DNA of 64,000 nucleotides. Source: Pseudoclavibacter endophyticus. Lineage in GTDB: Bacteria; Actinomycetota; Actinomycetes; Actinomycetales; Microbacteriaceae. How positions within the stretch are numbered: the stretch's first letter is position 1; each line of letters opens with the position of its first letter. This document shows positions 47,243-57,998 of this stretch, one piece after another. Location of the stretch: contig NZ_WBJY01000001.1 in NCBI RefSeq assembly GCF_008831085.1, positions 992,001 to 1,056,000 of the forward strand, written 5' to 3'. The notes under the pieces are model-generated. The model ran no database searches and had not been told where the DNA came from. It saw nothing but the letters and a program-made list of their open reading frames with translations. Made by a program: the position numbers and the translations under genes.

Positions 47243-47776
47243 TCCGCCATGCAATGCGGTGAGCCTGAACTGTGGGTGGATGCGAGGTATCGATCTCGCA
47301 ATATCGGCCCGGCGGAGCGAGGGAATGATGCGCGGGTGACTCGCGGGTCATCCTCGCGGCGGTCGCGGGGACGGGGACGGAGCGGGCGAGGTGGCCGTGC
47401 GGCGCTTGTCACACAGTGTCGGAGGGTCGTGCGACGCTTCGGGCATGAATCGGGTCCGTCAGGCGTTTTCTCCTGTGGGTTCGCAGCTTCGCTCGAGAGG
47501 GCGCAGGGGTGTTGTCCACAGGCCATGTGGAGAGCCCTGTGTGCAACCGCGTCCGGGTGTGTATGACACGCCGATTCGGTGGAATTCCATGCCGAAGCTG
47601 TGGACGCACCTGTGAGTAATTACACGGTTGTAACCCGAGATCTAGTGGTGTTATCGTCGTCAGACACAAGATGTTGTGGCTGGGGCGGTCCGTCCCCACC
47701 GGGACGCCAGCAGCATCCAGTCCTTTCGACACCACCGCATCAACGCCCCTCGGCAGCCAGTTCTTCAGGAGTCGCC
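47243..47776. promoter_or_regulatory. 534-bp control region upstream of nrdH, with DnaA box and palindromes
   Basis: No gene is supported here. The stretch holds a perfect actinobacterial DnaA box TTGTCCACA (47512-47520), which is also one arm of TCCACA-GGCCA-TGTGGA (47515-47531). It holds a 10-bp perfect palindrome TGGAATTCCA (47580-47589) between TTCGG and CCGAA, a weaker inverted DnaA-like TGTGGACGC (47599-47607) and the two NrdR boxes listed separately. TTGTAA (47628-47633) could act as a -35, with a weak TTATCG 17 bp below. Confidence 0.6.
47633..47679 (+). promoter_or_regulatory. Pair of NrdR boxes upstream of nrdHIEF
   Basis: ACCCGAGATCTAGTGG (47633-47648) and ACACAAGATGTTGTGG (47664-47679) both resemble the NrdR consensus ACACTATATATAGTGT. 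Their starts are 31 bp apart, three helical turns, as in known NrdR targets. The ATP/dATP-sensing repressor NrdR would bind both to repress the operon. The second box lies ~98 bp ahead of nrdH. Confidence 0.75.
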
Positions 47777-48013
47777 ATGAGCAGCATCACCGTCTACAGC
47801 AAGCCCGCGTGCGTGCAGTGCACCGCCACCAAGCGTGCACTCGACAAGCAGGGCATCGAGTACGAGATCTTCGACCTGTCGGTCGACGACAAGGCGCTCG
47901 CCACGGTCAAGGAACTCGGCTACATGCAGGCTCCTGTCGTCGTCGCCGGTGACGAGCACTGGTCGGGCTTCCGCCCCGACAAGATCTCGGAGCTCGCGAC
48001 GCGCGTCGCGTAG
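47777..48013 (+). CDS. nrdH: Glutaredoxin-like electron donor NrdH
   Basis: A 78-residue thioredoxin-fold protein that supplies electrons to class Ib ribonucleotide reductase. The redox motif is CVQC (Cys 12 and 15) in [14 protein letters not shown], and the C-terminal [11 protein letters not shown] is the NrdH hallmark. AGGAG lies six bases upstream of ATG 47777. It is the first gene of nrdHIEF, under two NrdR boxes. Confidence 0.96.
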
Positions 48014-48089
48014 CGAGTCCGCTGCCACACCACGTCGCCCGGCGAACGACGCACCCCACCACCCACGCCACCAGCGGAGGCCTCGCGCC

Positions 48090-48515
48090 ATGTCGCAACT
48101 CATCTACTTCTCGAGCGTGTCGAACAACACGCATCGATTCGTCGAGAAATTGGGGCGTGAGGCCGTTCGCATCCCGGTGAACCGCGACGCGGAGCCCATC
48201 GTGGCAACCGAACCGTACGTGCTCATCGTTCCCACCTATGGCGGGGGCGATGGCCGCGGGGCGGTCCCCAAGCAGGTCATCAAATTTCTCAACGTCCCCG
48301 GCAACCGCGAGCTGCTTCGCGGCGTCATCGCCGGGGGCAACACCAACTTCGGTCGGGGCTTCGGCATCGCGGCCGACATCATCGCAGCGAAGTGCCACGT
48401 CCCCGCCCTCTACCGCTTCGAACTCTTCGGCACGGAGGACGACGTCGAAGCGGTCACCTCTGGATTGGATTCGTTTTGGCAGCAACAGCAAACCCTGAGC
48501 TCGACGTCCCGGTAG
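48090..48515 (+). CDS. nrdI: Flavodoxin-like NrdI, class Ib RNR activator
   Basis: A 141-residue flavoprotein that generates superoxide or a related oxidant to build the Mn(III)2-tyrosyl radical of NrdF. The N-terminal [16 protein letters not shown] phosphate loop and [16 protein letters not shown] and [16 protein letters not shown] segments are typical. GGAGG precedes ATG 48090. It lies between nrdH and nrdE as expected for actinobacteria. Confidence 0.95.
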
Positions 48516-51701: not shown

Positions 51702-51736
51702 GCGCTTCTCTCGTCCCAGCTCATTAGCTGGTCAGG

Positions 51737-51770
51737 GGCCCGGATCTGCGAAATGTCGCAGGTTCGGGCC
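51737..51770. terminator. Terminator hairpin of the nrdHIEF operon
   Basis: GGCCCGGATCTGCG (51737-51750) pairs along its full length with CGCAGGTTCGGGCC (51757-51770), including two G-U pairs, around the loop AAATGT. It lies 36 bp past the nrdF stop and also before the end of the convergent XRE gene, so it can serve both directions. A short GCTTTC follows rather than a long U-run. Confidence 0.75.
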
Positions 51771-51815
51771 GCTTTCGTGCCCCCAGCCTCAACGCTCTGG
51801 ATCGCCATGTGGCGT

Positions 51816-52400
51816 TCACGCGGATCCACTCCAGGGCGCCGGGATGATCACCCAGATGATCGATGCGGGCTCGCCTCCCTCGACGTGCCAGGTGTGAGGC
51901 TCGCGACCAGGAAGCGTCAGTGCGTCGCCGGCGCTGAGCGCGACGGTCCTATCGGCGAAGCGCACAGTCACGCTCCCGTTCAAGACGTGCAGCACTTCGA
52001 CATCGCAGTTGATCGTGTACAGGTCCGAGCCGCCGTGGGCGTCGGGTTCGAGCTCCGAGCGCAGCAGCTGCACGCGTTGCTCGCCGCGCGGCGACATCAG
52101 GCGCTCGTCGGCGTGCACACCGCCGAGATTGATGCGCGGTGCGTCAGCGAACGTCACGCGCTGGATCTCCGGTTCGGCGAACAGGGCTCCGACCGGCAGT
52201 GACAGCACCTGGCACAGCTGCACGAGCGTCGAGACGCTCGGCGAGGTCTCGTCGCGTTCGACCCTGCTGAGAAATCCCTTCGAGAGACCGGTGGACTCGG
52301 CGAGCTGACCGAGCGAGAGGCCCTGGCCGGTCCGGACCGACCGCAGCTTCGCACCGATCGGTGTCGCGTTGCTGTTGGCCTGGGGGTGGATCGCGCGCAT
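51816..52400 (-). CDS. XRE family regulator with C-terminal cupin domain
   Basis: A 194-residue regulator. Residues ~15-70 form a lambda-repressor-like helix-turn-helix (LGQLAESTGLSKGFLSRVERDETSPSVSTL). The second half is a single cupin (LHVLNGSVTVRFADRTVALSAGDALTLPGREPHTWHVEG) that probably binds a small ligand. This architecture is common in regulators of polyamine and amino-acid catabolism (PuuR-like). It is divergent from the ureohydrolase pseudogene 99 bp away and probably regulated that cluster. Confidence 0.9.
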   Translation of the reverse strand: MRAIHPQANSNATPIGAKLRSVRTGQGLSLGQLAESTGLSKGFLSRVERDETSPSVSTLVQLCQVLSLPVGALFAEPEIQRVTFADAPRINLGGVHADERLMSPRGEQRVQLLRSELEPDAHGGSDLYTINCDVEVLHVLNGSVTVRFADRTVALSAGDALTLPGREPHTWHVEGGEPASIIWVIIPAPWSGSA

Positions 52401-52463
52401 TGCAGTACCTCAGGTCGATGATTCGTTCTTGACGCCGTGCGGCCGCAGGTCTAGCTTGAACCA

Positions 52464-52492
52464 GAAAGTTGCTTGTAGCGTATCGAAAGTTG
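52464..52492. promoter_or_regulatory. Two direct GAAAGTTG repeats, 21 bp apart, in divergent promoter region
   Basis: GAAAGTTG occurs at 52464-52471 and 52485-52492, exactly two helical turns apart, between the divergent XRE-cupin gene and the ureohydrolase pseudogene. TTGAAC (52456-52461) and TATCGA (52481-52486) may form a weak promoter in between. The repeats are candidates for XRE regulator binding. Confidence 0.4.
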
Positions 52493-52498
52493 TCAAAT

Positions 52499-53366
52499 AT
52501 GCAACCCTCTCCGAATCGCGGCCCGATCGACGCGAGCATCGTTCCGCGGTTCGCCGGTATCGCCACGTTCGCCCGCCTCCCGCGTCTCGATGAGGTCGAA
52601 CGGGCGGATGTCGCCGTGGCCGGCGTTCCTTTCGACAGTGGGGTCAGCTACCGGCCGGGCGCGAGGTTCGGACCTGCCCACGTGCGCGAGGCGTCGCGCC
52701 TGCTCCGGCCGTACAACCCGGCGCAGGACGTCTTCCCGTTCGGCGCGCAGCAGGTGGTGGATGCCGGAGACATCGTCGCCAACCCGTTCGACATCCCCGC
52801 GGCCGTCGCCGAGATCGAGGCGGGCGCCCGCGAGCTGCGCACCCGCGCCGACCGGCTCGTCGTGTACGTGTCCCACGTGTCGAGATGCGCATCGAAATGC
52901 AGCCGCGCCAACCACGCACGGCACGCCGTTCCGGCGCGCGTCGGAAGAGGGACTCATCGATCTCACCGCGAGCATGCACGTCGGCATCCGCGGCCCCCTC
53001 TATGACAAGAGCGACCTCGAAGACGACGAGCGCCTCGGCTTCGCGATCGTGTCGAGCGAGTACATCGAGGAGCACGGTGTGCCGGCCGCCGTCGACCGCG
53101 TCCGTGGCCGCGTGGGTGACAAGCCGCTCTACATCTCGATCGACATCGACGTGCTCGACCCCGCCCACGCGCCTGGCACAGGAACTCCCGAGGCGGGCGG
53201 GCTCACGAGCCGTGAACTGCTCCGGATGCTGCGCGCCCTCGACGGCTCGCGGATCGTCGGCGCCGACGTCGTCGAGGTGGCGCCCGCGTACGACCACGCG
53301 CAGCTCACCGCCGTGGCTGCGAGCCACGTGGTGTACGAGCTGCTCAGCGCGATGACGCCGCGCTGA
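52499..53366 (+). pseudogene. Agmatinase/ureohydrolase family gene disrupted by internal micro-inversion and deletion
   Basis: The 5' part (52499 to ~52863) encodes the N-terminal half of a SpeB-like ureohydrolase ([40 protein letters not shown]). The 3' part (from 52914, another frame) encodes the rest, [17 protein letters not shown] to the stop, including the metal motif [19 protein letters not shown]. Between them, about 48 bp (52864-52911) read correctly only on the opposite strand, as [13 protein letters not shown], the first metal-binding motif. The GGDH-containing stretch expected just upstream, about 20 residues, is missing. The frames differ (2, then 3), so no intact enzyme can be made. 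ATG 52499 is the likely original start. Confidence 0.88.
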
Positions 53367-53394
53367 GCGGCATCCGACTTCGAAGGAGAAGATC

Positions 53395-53784
53395 ATGACG
53401 ACCCCCGATCCGGCAGTAGTCGAGGCCGCGGCATCCGCCATCGTCGAGGCGTTCGCCGCCACCGACACCGAGCGCTACTTCGCGGGGTTCGCGCCTGACG
53501 CGACGTTCATCTTCCATCCCGAACCGCACCGCCTGGAAGACCGTGCGGGATACGAGAAGCTGTGGCGGGGATGGCTGGAGAGCGGTTGGAGGGTGACGTC
53601 GTGCACCTCGACCGACCGGCGCACCCAGGTCTTCGACGGCGGCGCGGTGTTCTCGCACACCGTCGCCACTTCGGTCCAGACGGCCGATGGCCCCGAGTCG
53701 TATCGCGAGCGCGAGAGCATCGTCTTCATTGCCGAAGGCGACCGCCTTCTCGCCGTCCACGAACACCTGTCACCGTTCACCTGA
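53395..53784 (+). CDS. NTF2-like / SnoaL-type small protein
   Basis: A 129-residue protein with the cone-shaped NTF2-like fold: VEAAASAIVEAFAATDTERYFAGFAPDATFIFHPEPHRL at the start and TSVQTADGPESYRERESIVFIAEGDRLLAVHEHLSPF at the end. Such proteins bind or isomerise small molecules; the substrate is unknown. GAAGGAG precedes ATG 53395. It lies between the ureohydrolase pseudogene and the permease, probably in one transcript. Confidence 0.75.
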   Translation: MTTPDPAVVEAAASAIVEAFAATDTERYFAGFAPDATFIFHPEPHRLEDRAGYEKLWRGWLESGWRVTSCTSTDRRTQVFDGGAVFSHTVATSVQTADGPESYRERESIVFIAEGDRLLAVHEHLSPFT

Positions 53785-53827
53785 GGGTCGACCACTTCTC
53801 CCGAACCCGAATCGAAGGAGCCCGAAG

Positions 53828-55213
53828 ATGTCGCTCTACTCTCGCCTTGAGCAGCGCCTGCAGTCGCAGTCCGATGACGCCGGACCCGTTCGCGGCACGT
53901 ACTCGGCCGGTCGCCTGCTGATGATCTGGCTCGCCGCGAACCTCGTCGTGACGACTCTGCTCACCGGCACGCTGTTCGTGCCGGACGTGCCGTACGGACT
54001 TGTGCTGCTCCTGATCGTCGGCGGCACCGTCGCGGGTGCCGCCGTCCTCGTCGCGGTTGGGACGATCGGTCGGCGCACCGGCCTTCCGACCATGGCGCTG
54101 ACCCGAGGGCCGTTCGGCACCCGGGGGAGTCTGCTGCCGGTCGCCGCGAACGTCGTCATCCTGATGGGGTGGAGCTGGGTGCAGGCGATGCTCGCGGGCA
54201 TCGCGCTCGACTACGTCGTCGCCACGTTCACCGGGTTCTCCAATCCGGTGATCTTCGCGGCGCTCTGCCAGACCATTGTCGTGATCCTCGCGATCTTCGG
54301 CCACGCCGGTGTCGCGCGCATCGAGCCCTGGTTCGCCGTGATCATCCTCTCGATCGCGGCCTACATCTTCATCGTCGCCTTCACCTCGTTCGGCCCGACT
54401 GAGTTCGTCAGCGCGATCCCGGAGCCGGACGAGCCGTTCTACTCGCCGGGGCTGGTGTTCGACGTCGTTCTCGCCACGGCCATATCGTGGACGGTGCTGG
54501 CGGCCGACATCAACCGTTTTGCCGGCAGCACCCGCGCGAGCGTCGTCGGCTCCGGCGTGGGCTACACCCTCTCGACAGTGATCTCGATGTCGCTCGGAGC
54601 CACCGCCATGGGCTTCGTGCTCCTCCGCGGCGGCGAGGCGATCCCGTTCGATCCGGTGACGATCATCCAGCCGGTCGGCTGGATTTTCGGCGTCGCGATC
54701 TTCCTCTCGGTGATGGCGACCAACACGATGGTCGTGTACGGCATGGTGACCACGGTCGTCAACGCTCTGCCGGGCACGCGAGTCAGGTTCTTGCCAACGG
54801 CTCTCGTACTCGGACTCATCTCGATCGTCGGTGCGACGTTCTTCGGTCTGCTGGATCAGTTCACGACGTTCCTCGTCACGATCGGCGCCCTGTTCGCCCC
54901 GATCTTCGCGATCATGATCGTCGACTACTACCTGATCAGGCGTGCATCGTACGACCGCGATATCTTGCGGGCCACTGGCGGACGCTACTGGTACGTGGGC
55001 GGCATCAACTGGCTCGCGATCGGGGCGTGGGTGGTCGGCGCGGTTCTCGCGTACGTCTGGGCATACGTGTGGCCATTGCCGTTCGGCTCCACGGCCCCTG
55101 CATTCGTGGTCACCTTCGTGCTCTACCTGGCGCTGTCGCTGCGATCACGCACGACAGGATCGTCGGTGCCGGCCGGTAACCTCGCCGTCGAGGAACCCGC
55201 TGTGAAGAAATGA
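53828..55213 (+). CDS. NCS1-family permease (purine/cytosine permease-like)
   Basis: A 461-residue carrier with about 12 spans. RLLMIWLAANLVVTTLLTGTL at the start, ALTRGPFGTRGSLLPVAANVV and SWTVLAADINRFAGSTRAS are typical of the nucleobase:cation symporter-1 family, including CodB-like proteins. The substrate may be a nucleobase, or a guanidino or ureido compound given the neighbouring ureohydrolase remnant (inference). ATG 53828 is the first start inside the family-like region. Confidence 0.85.
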   Translation: MSLYSRLEQRLQSQSDDAGPVRGTYSAGRLLMIWLAANLVVTTLLTGTLFVPDVPYGLVLLLIVGGTVAGAAVLVAVGTIGRRTGLPTMALTRGPFGTRGSLLPVAANVVILMGWSWVQAMLAGIALDYVVATFTGFSNPVIFAALCQTIVVILAIFGHAGVARIEPWFAVIILSIAAYIFIVAFTSFGPTEFVSAIPEPDEPFYSPGLVFDVVLATAISWTVLAADINRFAGSTRASVVGSGVGYTLSTVISMSLGATAMGFVLLRGGEAIPFDPVTIIQPVGWIFGVAIFLSVMATNTMVVYGMVTTVVNALPGTRVRFLPTALVLGLISIVGATFFGLLDQFTTFLVTIGALFAPIFAIMIVDYYLIRRASYDRDILRATGGRYWYVGGINWLAIGAWVVGAVLAYVWAYVWPLPFGSTAPAFVVTFVLYLALSLRSRTTGSSVPAGNLAVEEPAVKK

Positions 55214-55506: not shown

Positions 55507-56586
55507 GTGAGTCAGACAATGGCGGAGCATCGTGGCGGTCGCGGCAGGAAGCACCTCCTGCACCATGGCCGGAGCCGGCGCCGCTGGCTGCGCGGGGCGG
55601 TCGTCGCCGGGATCCTCGTGCTGCTGGTCGTTGTGACGTTGCAGGCGACGCCGTGGCCGTCGGCCCTGCTCATCCGCTCGGTATTCGAGAAGGGTGGCGC
55701 GGAGACGGTCGCCGAAATGGAGCCGTACGTGCCGGCCACGGGCGTCGAAGACCTCGGCGTGCACCAGTACGGTGACGACGACTCGTCCGACACGACGCTC
55801 CGCGCCTTCTCGGCCGACGGTGAGGGACCTCTTCCCGCCGTGGTGTGGATCCACGGGGGCGCCTGGATCTCGGGACACCGTGAGGATGTCGAGCCTTACC
55901 TGCAGATCCTCGCGGCCGAGGGCTACACCACGATCGCGCTCAACTACACGGTGGGTCCCGACGCGGTCTATCCCACCGCGGTAAACCAGCTCAATGAGGC
56001 GCTCGCCTACATTGACGCGCACGCCGAGGAATTGCGTGTCGATCCCGAGCGGATCGTCCTCGCCGGCGACTCGGCTGGCGCCCAGCTGGCCAGTCAGTTG
56101 ACGGTACTGACGACCAACCCGGAGTACGCCCAGCTCATCGGCATCGAGCCTGCCCTCGCGTCATCCCAGCTCATCGGAACCATCCTGAACTGCGGCGTGT
56201 ACGACATGCGTCGGATGGCGGACCTCACCGGCATCGCGGCGTGGGGGTTCAAGACGGCGCTGTGGGCATACACGGGGACCAAGGACTGGTCGGCGACCTA
56301 TGCCGGGGCGACCATGTCGACGATCGACTTCGTGACGGAGGACTTCCCGTCCACCTACATCAGCGGAGGTAACGGCGACGGACTCACCTGGCTGCAGTCG
56401 GTGCCGATGGCCGAGCGATTGCAGTCCGAGGGCGTGGAGGTCACCCGGCTCTTCTGGCCCGAGCCGCACCAACCGTCGCTGCAGCACGAGTACCAGTTCC
56501 ACCTCGACCTCGACGAGGCCCAGACCGCCCTCCGAGAGACCATCGCATTCCTGGCGGGGATCACCGCGTCGAACGACGGGAGCTGA
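55507..56586 (+). CDS. Membrane-anchored esterase/lipase of the HSL type
   Basis: A 359-residue alpha/beta hydrolase. After a basic N-terminus comes one transmembrane anchor (residues ~29-48, AVVAGILVLLVVVTLQATPW). The oxyanion motif is WIHGGAWISG, the nucleophile is in LAGDSAGAQLA (Ser ~189) and the catalytic His is probably in WPEPHQPSLQHEYQFH. The substrate is unknown. GTG 55507 is supported by GGAG upstream. Confidence 0.88.
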   Translation: MSQTMAEHRGGRGRKHLLHHGRSRRRWLRGAVVAGILVLLVVVTLQATPWPSALLIRSVFEKGGAETVAEMEPYVPATGVEDLGVHQYGDDDSSDTTLRAFSADGEGPLPAVVWIHGGAWISGHREDVEPYLQILAAEGYTTIALNYTVGPDAVYPTAVNQLNEALAYIDAHAEELRVDPERIVLAGDSAGAQLASQLTVLTTNPEYAQLIGIEPALASSQLIGTILNCGVYDMRRMADLTGIAAWGFKTALWAYTGTKDWSATYAGATMSTIDFVTEDFPSTYISGGNGDGLTWLQSVPMAERLQSEGVEVTRLFWPEPHQPSLQHEYQFHLDLDEAQTALRETIAFLAGITASNDGS

Positions 56587-56697
56587 GTCTCGCGAGCAAC
56601 GCCAGCTGCCCACCGAGGCCGGGCCCAGCAGGGACGGATCGACGCGAGTCGTGAAACCAGTGATCGGCCGCCGAGGGCAGCGTCTCGGCGTCCTCCG

Positions 56698-57078
56698 TCA
56701 TTTCAGGGTGCTTGCGGATGCGTCGGACGCCGCGCGGACGACGGTGAGAAGGAACACGCTGTCCTCGATGGCCGTCACCGAATGCCGTTCGGGTGGGATG
56801 GCGATGAGGTCTCCCCTGTTGAGCTCCCATGACCTCGCTTGCCCGTTCAGGCGCACCCGCCCGGTCAACACGTGCAACGTCGCTTCGGGCGGACTTTCGT
56901 GTTCAGCCAGGTGGCTGCCGGCCAGAAGCGCGAGCACCGTCTGCCTGAGGAGCGTGTCACGCGATCCGTAGACGGTTTCCGCCGCGCGGTGCGCGTTGGC
57001 GGTGCGCGCTGCGGCGAGCAGCTTGTCGTGTCGCGTGATGAGGTTCGTGGGCAGAAGGTCGTTGCTGTCGTGTGTCAT
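56698..57078 (-). CDS. Small cupin domain protein
   Basis: A 126-residue single cupin. Residues ~55-115 hold GSHLAEHESPPEATLHVLTGRVRLNG and GDLIAIPPERHSVTAIEDSVFLLTVV, the two cupin motifs. The N-terminal helix (LLAAARTANAHRAAETVYG) is extra. The gene is coupled by ATGA to a tiny upstream frame at 57075-57161. It is divergent from a DUF2249-cupin fusion gene, and the two probably belong to one regulon. Confidence 0.82.
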   Translation of the reverse strand: MTHDSNDLLPTNLITRHDKLLAAARTANAHRAAETVYGSRDTLLRQTVLALLAGSHLAEHESPPEATLHVLTGRVRLNGQARSWELNRGDLIAIPPERHSVTAIEDSVFLLTVVRAASDASASTLK

Positions 57079-57161
57079 CGTCCGCTCGCTTTCACCTGGT
57101 TGCCAAGAGCAGACTCCTCTGCAATGTTCGCGGCCGCAGTCGCCACCATCTCATCGTTCAT
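57075..57161 (-). CDS. Tiny 28-residue open frame coupled to cupin gene
   Basis: ATG 57161 is preceded by AGGAG seven bases upstream and the frame ends in a TGA that overlaps the cupin start (ATGA). The predicted peptide starts MNDEMVATAAANIAEESALG. It could be a leader peptide that couples translation, or a genuine micro-protein. There is no family evidence, so the call rests on the ribosome binding site and the overlap. Confidence 0.4.
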   Translation of the reverse strand: MNDEMVATAAANIAEESALGNQVKASGR

Positions 57162-57386
57162 GCTGCTGCTCCTGTCGTCGCGCTCCGCACCCGGCACGCG
57201 CCGGGCCGCTCACGAAAGAGCGGATAGCGTTGGGTGTGCGTCGAGCCGTTCAGCCAAGGCCATGCCATACACCAGCGTCTCCGAGACCTGCGGCAACCGC
57301 AACACCGGCGACTCGCGACCGGTCGATCTTCCGCATTGCCGCGAATGATCCGGTTCGCTTGAGAGGGAAGCGAAGGAGGACGAAAC

Positions 57387-57998
57387 ATGCTGGATGACCG
57401 TGAGGTGGACGTGCGCGCGATTCCCGAGGCGCAACGGCACGCGCTGGTTCTTGCTGCCTTCGACCGCCTCGACATCGGGCAGGCGATCCTGCTGACCGAT
57501 GATCACGAGCCCCGGCAACTGTGGGAGGAGTTCGACCGGGAGTTGCCAGGCTCGTTCACCTGGAATTCCCTGGGTGAGACCAGCGCCGGTGCTTGGCAGG
57601 CGCGGATCGTTCGCAGGACACGCAGGCCTCTACCGCGGCTCGTCGCTGATACATCGGCGCTCCTGGGAGCGCTCGACATCGACCGGGGCGGCTCCGTGTG
57701 GCAGCTGAACCCCGCCAGTCGTGACCTCGATGCGAACATCATCGCTCTGCCGCCAGGCGACACGATCGCCACTCACGACGGCCCCGACCTCGACGTGCTG
57801 ATCTTGGTGCTCACCGGGACTGGCACGGTCGGAACGGAGAACGGCGAGATCCCACTGACGCCCGGCGCACTGCTCTGGCTCCCGGCCGGTTCCCAGCGCC
57901 GCATCGAGGCCGGCGACGACGGGCTCCGGTACTTCTCCGTCCACCACCGCAAGCCCACGCTGACCATCTCTCCGTTGCCGCCTCGCACCGAGCGCTGA
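57387..57998 (+). CDS. DUF2249-cupin fusion protein
   Basis: A 203-residue protein. Residues 1-75 match DUF2249 (LDDREVDVRAIPEAQRHALVLAAFDRL and ELPGSFTWNSLGETSAGAWQARI). Residues ~95-200 form a cupin (GPDLDVLILVLTGTGTVGTENGEIPLTPGALLWLPAGSQRRIEAG). DUF2249 proteins often occur with denitrification or hemerythrin-type redox genes. GAAGGAGG precedes ATG 57387. The divergent upstream region with the small cupin gene has no obvious operator. Confidence 0.82.
   Translation: MLDDREVDVRAIPEAQRHALVLAAFDRLDIGQAILLTDDHEPRQLWEEFDRELPGSFTWNSLGETSAGAWQARIVRRTRRPLPRLVADTSALLGALDIDRGGSVWQLNPASRDLDANIIALPPGDTIATHDGPDLDVLILVLTGTGTVGTENGEIPLTPGALLWLPAGSQRRIEAGDDGLRYFSVHHRKPTLTISPLPPRTER

Follow-up and report, generated by a model that had tools for sequence, protein, structure and literature searches.

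An inverted block with flanking losses in an agmatinase-family ureohydrolase gene of Pseudoclavibacter endophyticus

How does a bacterial gene come to carry the metal-binding motif of its enzyme on the wrong strand? The question is raised by a broken gene of the arginase/agmatinase family of ureohydrolases (52499-53366, plus strand), which lies in a 64,000-nucleotide stretch of the Pseudoclavibacter endophyticus genome, hereafter the window. The window covers positions 992001-1056000 of contig C1 in an assembly of 3.26 Mb (six contigs, 97.8% complete, 0 contamination). A first-pass annotation, made from the letters alone, had described a micro-inversion combined with a deletion inside this gene. 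Comparison with relatives bore this out through the opposite-strand orientation of a short block, a shortened interval between the two halves of the gene and a four-point alignment across the junctions.

A ureohydrolase gene with a block on the opposite strand

The gene is in two pieces, each of which matches PF00491. The N-terminal part (52499-52863, plus strand) runs from the ATG start through the codons for ...DRLV and two further bases up to a position that we call switch point 1, and the C-terminal part (52904-53366, plus strand) continues to the stop in another frame. Taken alone, the N half (52499-52861) matches PF00491 (Arginase) over profile positions 1-83 of 280 (E = 7.8e-18) and the C half (52917-53363) over positions 135-279 of 280 (E = 1.3e-48). 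The two halves are therefore in collinear order on the profile. Both lie on the plus strand and their frames differ, as had been claimed; the list of open reading frames (ORFs) agrees. The frame open from the gene's own ATG (52499-53005, plus strand; stop codon 53003-53005) encodes ~121 native residues, followed by out-of-frame residues. When long frames were chosen by guanine-plus-cytosine content at third codon positions (GC3), 52 frames spanned 86% of the window and 11 gaps of more than 250 bp remained; one of the frames picked in this way is out of frame with the N half of the broken gene.

Between the two parts lies a block of ~40 bp (52864-52903, minus strand), delimited by its opposite-strand matches in relatives and by a joint optimum over 21 of them. 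The minus strand of 52864-52902 encodes the 13-residue metal-binding motif, with all 13 residues unchanged, and one further base forms part of the preceding codon. The first-pass annotation had extended the block to 52911 (~48 bp from 52864); the inversion, the motif and the start stand, and the extent was, at the best placement, 8 bp too long, most likely reaching into ordinary plus-strand sequence. The block matches an intact paralog of the same genome, on contig C4, in the orientation opposite to that of the flanks (E = 1.5e-9), and of the nine genus mates six likewise gave a match on the opposite strand (E = 3.2e-9 to 3.2e-6). Query bases 385-424, which correspond to 52864-52903, were aligned in G003, G004, G005 and G006, and bases 386-424 in G008; the alignment covered 371-423 in G002 and 371-424 in the C4 paralog. 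Of the remaining genomes, G007 has both halves but no match to the block among those listed, and G001 and G009 gave short weak matches only. In all 36 printed loci the best match to the 40-mer was opposite to the strand on which HFDAH is read, with 3-8 mismatches. The 40-mer occurs once in the window, and a match at three or fewer mismatches was obtained in 0 of 100 shuffles.

The arrangement was then compared across a wider set of relatives. A family search covered 398 genomes, 293 of them with some match; the matches listed from it supplied 30 loci (L001, which is the window, and L121-L149). Both halves are carried by 117 loci, one of which is the C4 paralog; 114 are distinct over the ~252 compared bases, so that not all are independent. 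The interval between the halves is 55 bp in the broken gene and 132 bp in 111 of the 117 loci, the others having 135 bp (five loci) or 123 bp (one). By eye, these odd lengths reflect where the half alignment ended in L079, L081 and L089 and one extra codon in L080, L088 and L096. GGDH is found within the interval in 116 of the 117 loci, L081 beginning at GDH through alignment placement. A search for the same inversion among these relatives was negative: the motif was inverted in none of the 117 loci, 116 of which read HFDAH in the normal place and one (L065) HADAH.

Switch points and junction sequences

The window was aligned with 21 of the 117 loci, the nearest by protein identity of the halves, under a gap-free four-point model (a left flank, a reverse-complement piece and a right flank), with the ancestral state drawn from these other species. 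The model was better than a plain deletion in all 21 relatives, with scores of 55 to 106 versus -14 to 34, which rules out a plain deletion without inversion. On the ancestral interval the switch points fall at +2 (point 1), +75 (point 3), +114 (point 2) and +120 (point 4). This placement is optimal in 18 of the 21; in L125, L042 and L134 an end is shifted by 1-2 bp from the joint optimum. Over the 21 relatives together, the joint optimum (52864-52903) scored 1737 versus 1710 for the next placement. The left end of the block is confined to 52863-52865, and the right end lies at 52901-52904 in most relatives, with ties that reach 52907-52913 in six of the 21 and leave the order of the points unchanged.

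At junction 1 (52863-52864), ~72 bp are lost relative to the relatives, that is, 24 codons' worth including GGDH. At junction 2 (52903-52904), the least certain end, positions 52905-52916 (GCG CCA ACC ACG) read APTT in the plus-strand frame of the C half, and therefore ~5 bp, the Phe codon and most of the Gly codon, are lost after the motif. The statement of the first-pass annotation that GGDH is gone before the motif and that a few residues are missing after it thus holds. The length lost, which it had left to be mapped, is a net 77 bp at the joint optimum, made up of 72 bp ahead of the block and 5 bp behind it, plus a frameshift, as measured against relatives of other species. The points follow one another in the order 1-3-2-4 and the segment is the reverse complement of ancestral sequence between the flanks, so that the structure reads as a 1-3-2-4 event in template-switch notation.

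The GGDH and DAHxD motifs supply four of the six metal-binding residues in the ureohydrolase family. In the broken gene GGDH is missing from the reading frame and DAHLD is present on the minus strand only; the frame is broken and GGDH lost because of the inverted piece and the bases missing around it. Judging from the sequence, the enzyme should be dead, and with both halves matching PF00491 the gene can be classed as an agmatinase-family ureohydrolase pseudogene.

We examined whether sequence at the junctions could have guided the event. At junction 1, microhomology was 0 in 13 of the 21 nearest relatives and 1 bp in eight; at junction 2 it was 0 in 18, 1 bp in two and 2 bp in one. Random position pairs gave 0 in 49% and 1 bp in 28%, and microhomology above chance was found at neither junction against these relatives (0-2 bp). 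Near points 1 and 2, complementary arms reached 4-8 bp across the 21 relatives, and their sequences vary from one relative to another. Arms of at least 7 bp occurred in six of the 21 versus 14% of random placements, a slight excess among relatives that are not independent. Nor were inverted repeats found to abut the inverted segment when the junctions were compared with the 21 relatives. We read these results as pointing to no guide sequence, though the excess of arms is not a flat null.

One candidate guide had been proposed earlier, the inverted repeat ACGTG-TCC-CACGT, placed by the first-pass annotation in the junction region. The repeat exists (52867-52879), but it lies inside the block, where it is part of the TWDTY codons, and 12 of the 117 loci, all of them intact, carry it in coding orientation. 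For these reasons, and with microhomology at chance level, it was rejected as a guide for template switching.

Origin and age of the rearrangement

The two halves of the gene show no decay. At the 104 columns with conservation of at least 98% (36 in the N half and 68 in the C half) the window has no change, and it has none at the 127 with at least 90%; by construction, intact relatives also rarely differ at such columns. The median ratio of nonsynonymous to synonymous differences (pN/pS) was 0.203 between the window and 16 of its nearest relatives and 0.191 among those relatives, at a synonymous divergence (dS) from the window of 0.55-1.16. Because a gene free to decay over much of that divergence should show changes, the break is, on this evidence, either recent or absent from the living cell.

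We lean modestly towards the explanation that the ureohydrolase gene was recently inactivated in this lineage by a two-jump local template switch, in the course of replication or break repair. A growing strand, moving to the right, would have halted just after the ...DRLV codons (point 1), and synthesis would have moved to the opposite strand ~112 bases further on (point 2). From there ~40 bases would have been copied backwards, to point 3, before a return to the original template ~5 bases beyond the start of the copied piece (point 4). The product would be a piece that is inverted, with ~72 and ~5 bases missing around it. Since point 1 comes before point 2, the logic set out in PMC7954356 rules out a switch confined to a single strand. 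We infer a single event, one of copying rather than of cutting and joining, that is present in the living strain. Several observations weigh against this explanation: the genome encodes Ku and LigD, so that end joining is available; the ancestral state rests on other species, as the compared genomes represent one species each; and the lack of decay would fit an artefact too.

The sequence outcome would be identical if two double-strand breaks had freed the short piece, the ends had lost ~72 and ~5 bases to trimming, and the 40-bp piece had been reinserted in reverse by Ku/LigD end joining; the sequence does not decide between copying and cut-and-join. We consider this route unlikely, though it is the chief rival and to be taken seriously. 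A Ku domain (C4:283879-284418, over the cut-off) and LigD_N (C4:282439-282711) are encoded ~1.2 kb apart on opposite strands, and junctions with 0-2 bp of microhomology, mostly 0, suit direct joining. Copying is nevertheless favoured because one stalled end is enough for it, whereas rejoining would need two breaks within ~120 bp and the survival of a free 40-bp duplex, and the sequence bears no positive mark of end joining. A chimeric molecule or an assembly error, with an intact gene in the living strain, we hold to be improbable. The complete lack of decay in a broken gene is expected of an artefact too, and in the accessible part of PMC1855051 more than 85% of the chimeras produced by multiple displacement amplification (MDA) are inverted sequences with intervening deletions. 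However, more than 70% of the MDA chimera junctions described there have 2-21 nt of complementarity, versus 0-2 here; two junctions 40 bp apart would be needed; and six contigs with the completeness and contamination given above appear unlike a single-cell amplified genome. Protein searches bear on the same point. A near-identical intact agmatinase was not among the matches listed for the C half (best 93%; best 120 of 8000), nor was the broken N-half product among those listed for the N half (best 88% identity over 72% of the query; best 120 of 1364). In this database, clustered at 90%, at least 12 of the listed proteins could be no more than 90-91% identical to an intact copy; the absence of a near-identical intact protein is uninformative because the clustering may hide such a copy.

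Two further origins of the block were weighed. If the block were filler copied from the intact C4 paralog into a 117-bp deletion, it would not be the gene's own sequence flipped. The paralog differs from the block at 3 of 40 bases, and none of the 36 printed loci has fewer differences, but it is tied with L135, a locus of another genus (G258), so its closeness is not special. The three differences are silent C/T changes (block codons CAT, GAT and CAT), and the rest of the gene is without sign of time for later change; we therefore regard filler from the paralog as very improbable. We give least credence of all to a programmed or phase-variable inversion, or to a functional split gene. No point in its support was found; with 77 bp lost the segment cannot flip back to an intact gene, and GGDH is absent. 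The arms at its flanks are short and vary among relatives, and none of the 117 loci has the motif inverted. The local template switch remains our preferred explanation.

The surrounding cluster, the paralog and described rearrangements

The broken gene belongs to a cluster whose composition, as first annotated, is confirmed by domain matches. It comprises a divergent XRE/helix-turn-helix (HTH)-cupin regulator (51816-52400, minus strand; HTH_31 and Cupin_2), a SnoaL/NTF2-like protein (53395-53784, plus strand; PF13474 SnoaL_3, E = 1e-11) and an NCS1-family permease (53828-55213, plus strand; PF02133, E = 8.3e-34), all with intact open frames. The regulator matched the PuuR model PRK09943 at E = 6.7e-18 and the permease TIGR02358 at E = 2.7e-42, both below the cut-off of the model. 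The same gene set surrounds a ureohydrolase in 10 of the 88 loci L033-L120 (L034, L041-L045, L047, L048, L050 and L051); L096 has weaker matches to all members of the set in another order, and several of the 88 loci end at contig ends. Loss of the enzyme possibly stranded the whole cluster. The regulator and the transporter may have outlived the enzyme, or the break may have polar effects on the downstream genes.

Beyond the cluster, 55507-57998 encodes an alpha/beta hydrolase (PF20434/PF07859), a small protein with a weak cupin match and a DUF2249 plus cupin protein. A stretch of 1.1 kb without a long high-GC3 frame (47255-48391) precedes a GTG-started nrdA-like frame. An Rfam scan of the window gave nothing at gathering scores.

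The history of the cluster was followed through the relatives. In a tree of the two halves (71 rows), the genus mates lie away from the window, which groups with Microbacterium yannicii (L041; support 0.89); the nearest named loci to the gene are from Microbacterium yannicii, Cryobacterium, Agromyces and Agrococcus. In genus mates, DNA similarity stops at or near the end of nrdB. The cluster was absent within ~6 kb after nrdB in the three genus mates examined (G003, G006 and G008; ten genomes in the genus search, including the window's own). Elsewhere in their genomes, G002 has a divergent cluster, and G004 and G006 have DNA 69% identical to the SnoaL-permease part. Because the cluster does not follow nrdB in these three genus mates and the nearest named relative is Microbacterium yannicii, the cluster (51702-55213) was probably gained beside nrdB by horizontal transfer. 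The permease protein (P0121, window 53828-55210) was counted as identical on two contigs, the longest of 2,869,920 bp, while C1 measures 2,157,337 bp; because an identical permease lies on a contig other than C1, a second near-identical assembly seems to exist.

The intact paralog is a divergent protein of 335 aa (L033 5812-6819, contig C4, minus strand), with 71% protein identity to the gene in the N half and 79% in the C half. Its clade in the tree comprises 11 rows (support 0.84), and the other seven members shown belong to Microbacterium; because of this placement it is not a recent duplicate. On C4 it adjoins a large frame that, by eye, resembles a thiamine-diphosphate enzyme. For the organism, the event would mean one enzyme lost with a divergent intact paralog present.

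Small inversions are probably hard to see in bacteria, in which annotation tends to record a frameshift only. No report of a bacterial gene inactivated by a base-level microinversion was found among the papers listed from the open-licence literature, judged by titles and the starts of abstracts, and the accessible part of PMC2483231 mentions microinversions only as mammalian markers. It is a tentative thought, and a rather unlikely one, that bacteria with Ku and LigD make microhomology-free 1-3-2-4 rearrangements as an overlooked gene-killing class, scored today as frameshifted pseudogenes. If this were true, the present gene would be a base-level specimen of that class. With four points legible almost base by base and no abutting repeats, the case offers a pattern to search for, namely a broken gene that contains a reverse-complement segment. 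Searches of this kind could count such events in many genomes and show whether or not they go with end-joining genes.

At the protein level, the solved structures closest to an intact relative (P0001) are 3NIP (E = 8.9e-76), 1GQ6 (1.4e-74) and 3NIO (8.1e-74), and the NCBIfam agmatinase models were passed by all three intact relatives scanned. These structures, a 3-guanidinopropionase, a proclavaminate amidinohydrolase and a guanidinobutyrase, respectively, are PF00491 kin of the window gene, which differs from them in lacking GGDH and in having DAHLD on the wrong strand.

At the DNA level, several described rearrangements resemble the event in part. The human-chimpanzee microinversions in the accessible part of PMC8755829 are likewise short inverted segments, but they measure 17-33 nt, are all flanked by inverted repeats and mostly occur without loss, whereas here ~40 bp are inverted, ~72 and ~5 bp are lost and microhomology is not above chance. 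Quasipalindrome-associated template switching in Escherichia coli, as presented in the available text of PMC7202029, shares local strand switching in bacteria and relies on an imperfect inverted repeat, whereas none abuts the present junctions above chance. Spacer inversions in yeast, according to the portion of PMC8604942 consulted, arise only with arms of more than 9 bp, versus 4-8 bp here. The MDA chimeras of PMC1855051, within the part of that source cited above, share an inversion with an intervening deletion and differ in their junction complementarity. By its structure the event corresponds to the 1-3-2-4 event of the four-point model of Loytynoja and Goldman, as given in Walker et al. 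2021 (PMC7954356), a described class in which a shorter reverse complement of part of a larger region takes the place of that region. The order of the points and the replacement are the same; unlike those cases, which come from great apes, the present one lies in a bacterial protein-coding gene and was compared across species rather than between close sisters. The case is a well-resolved specimen of a known class of DNA copying or repair error rather than a new biological system.
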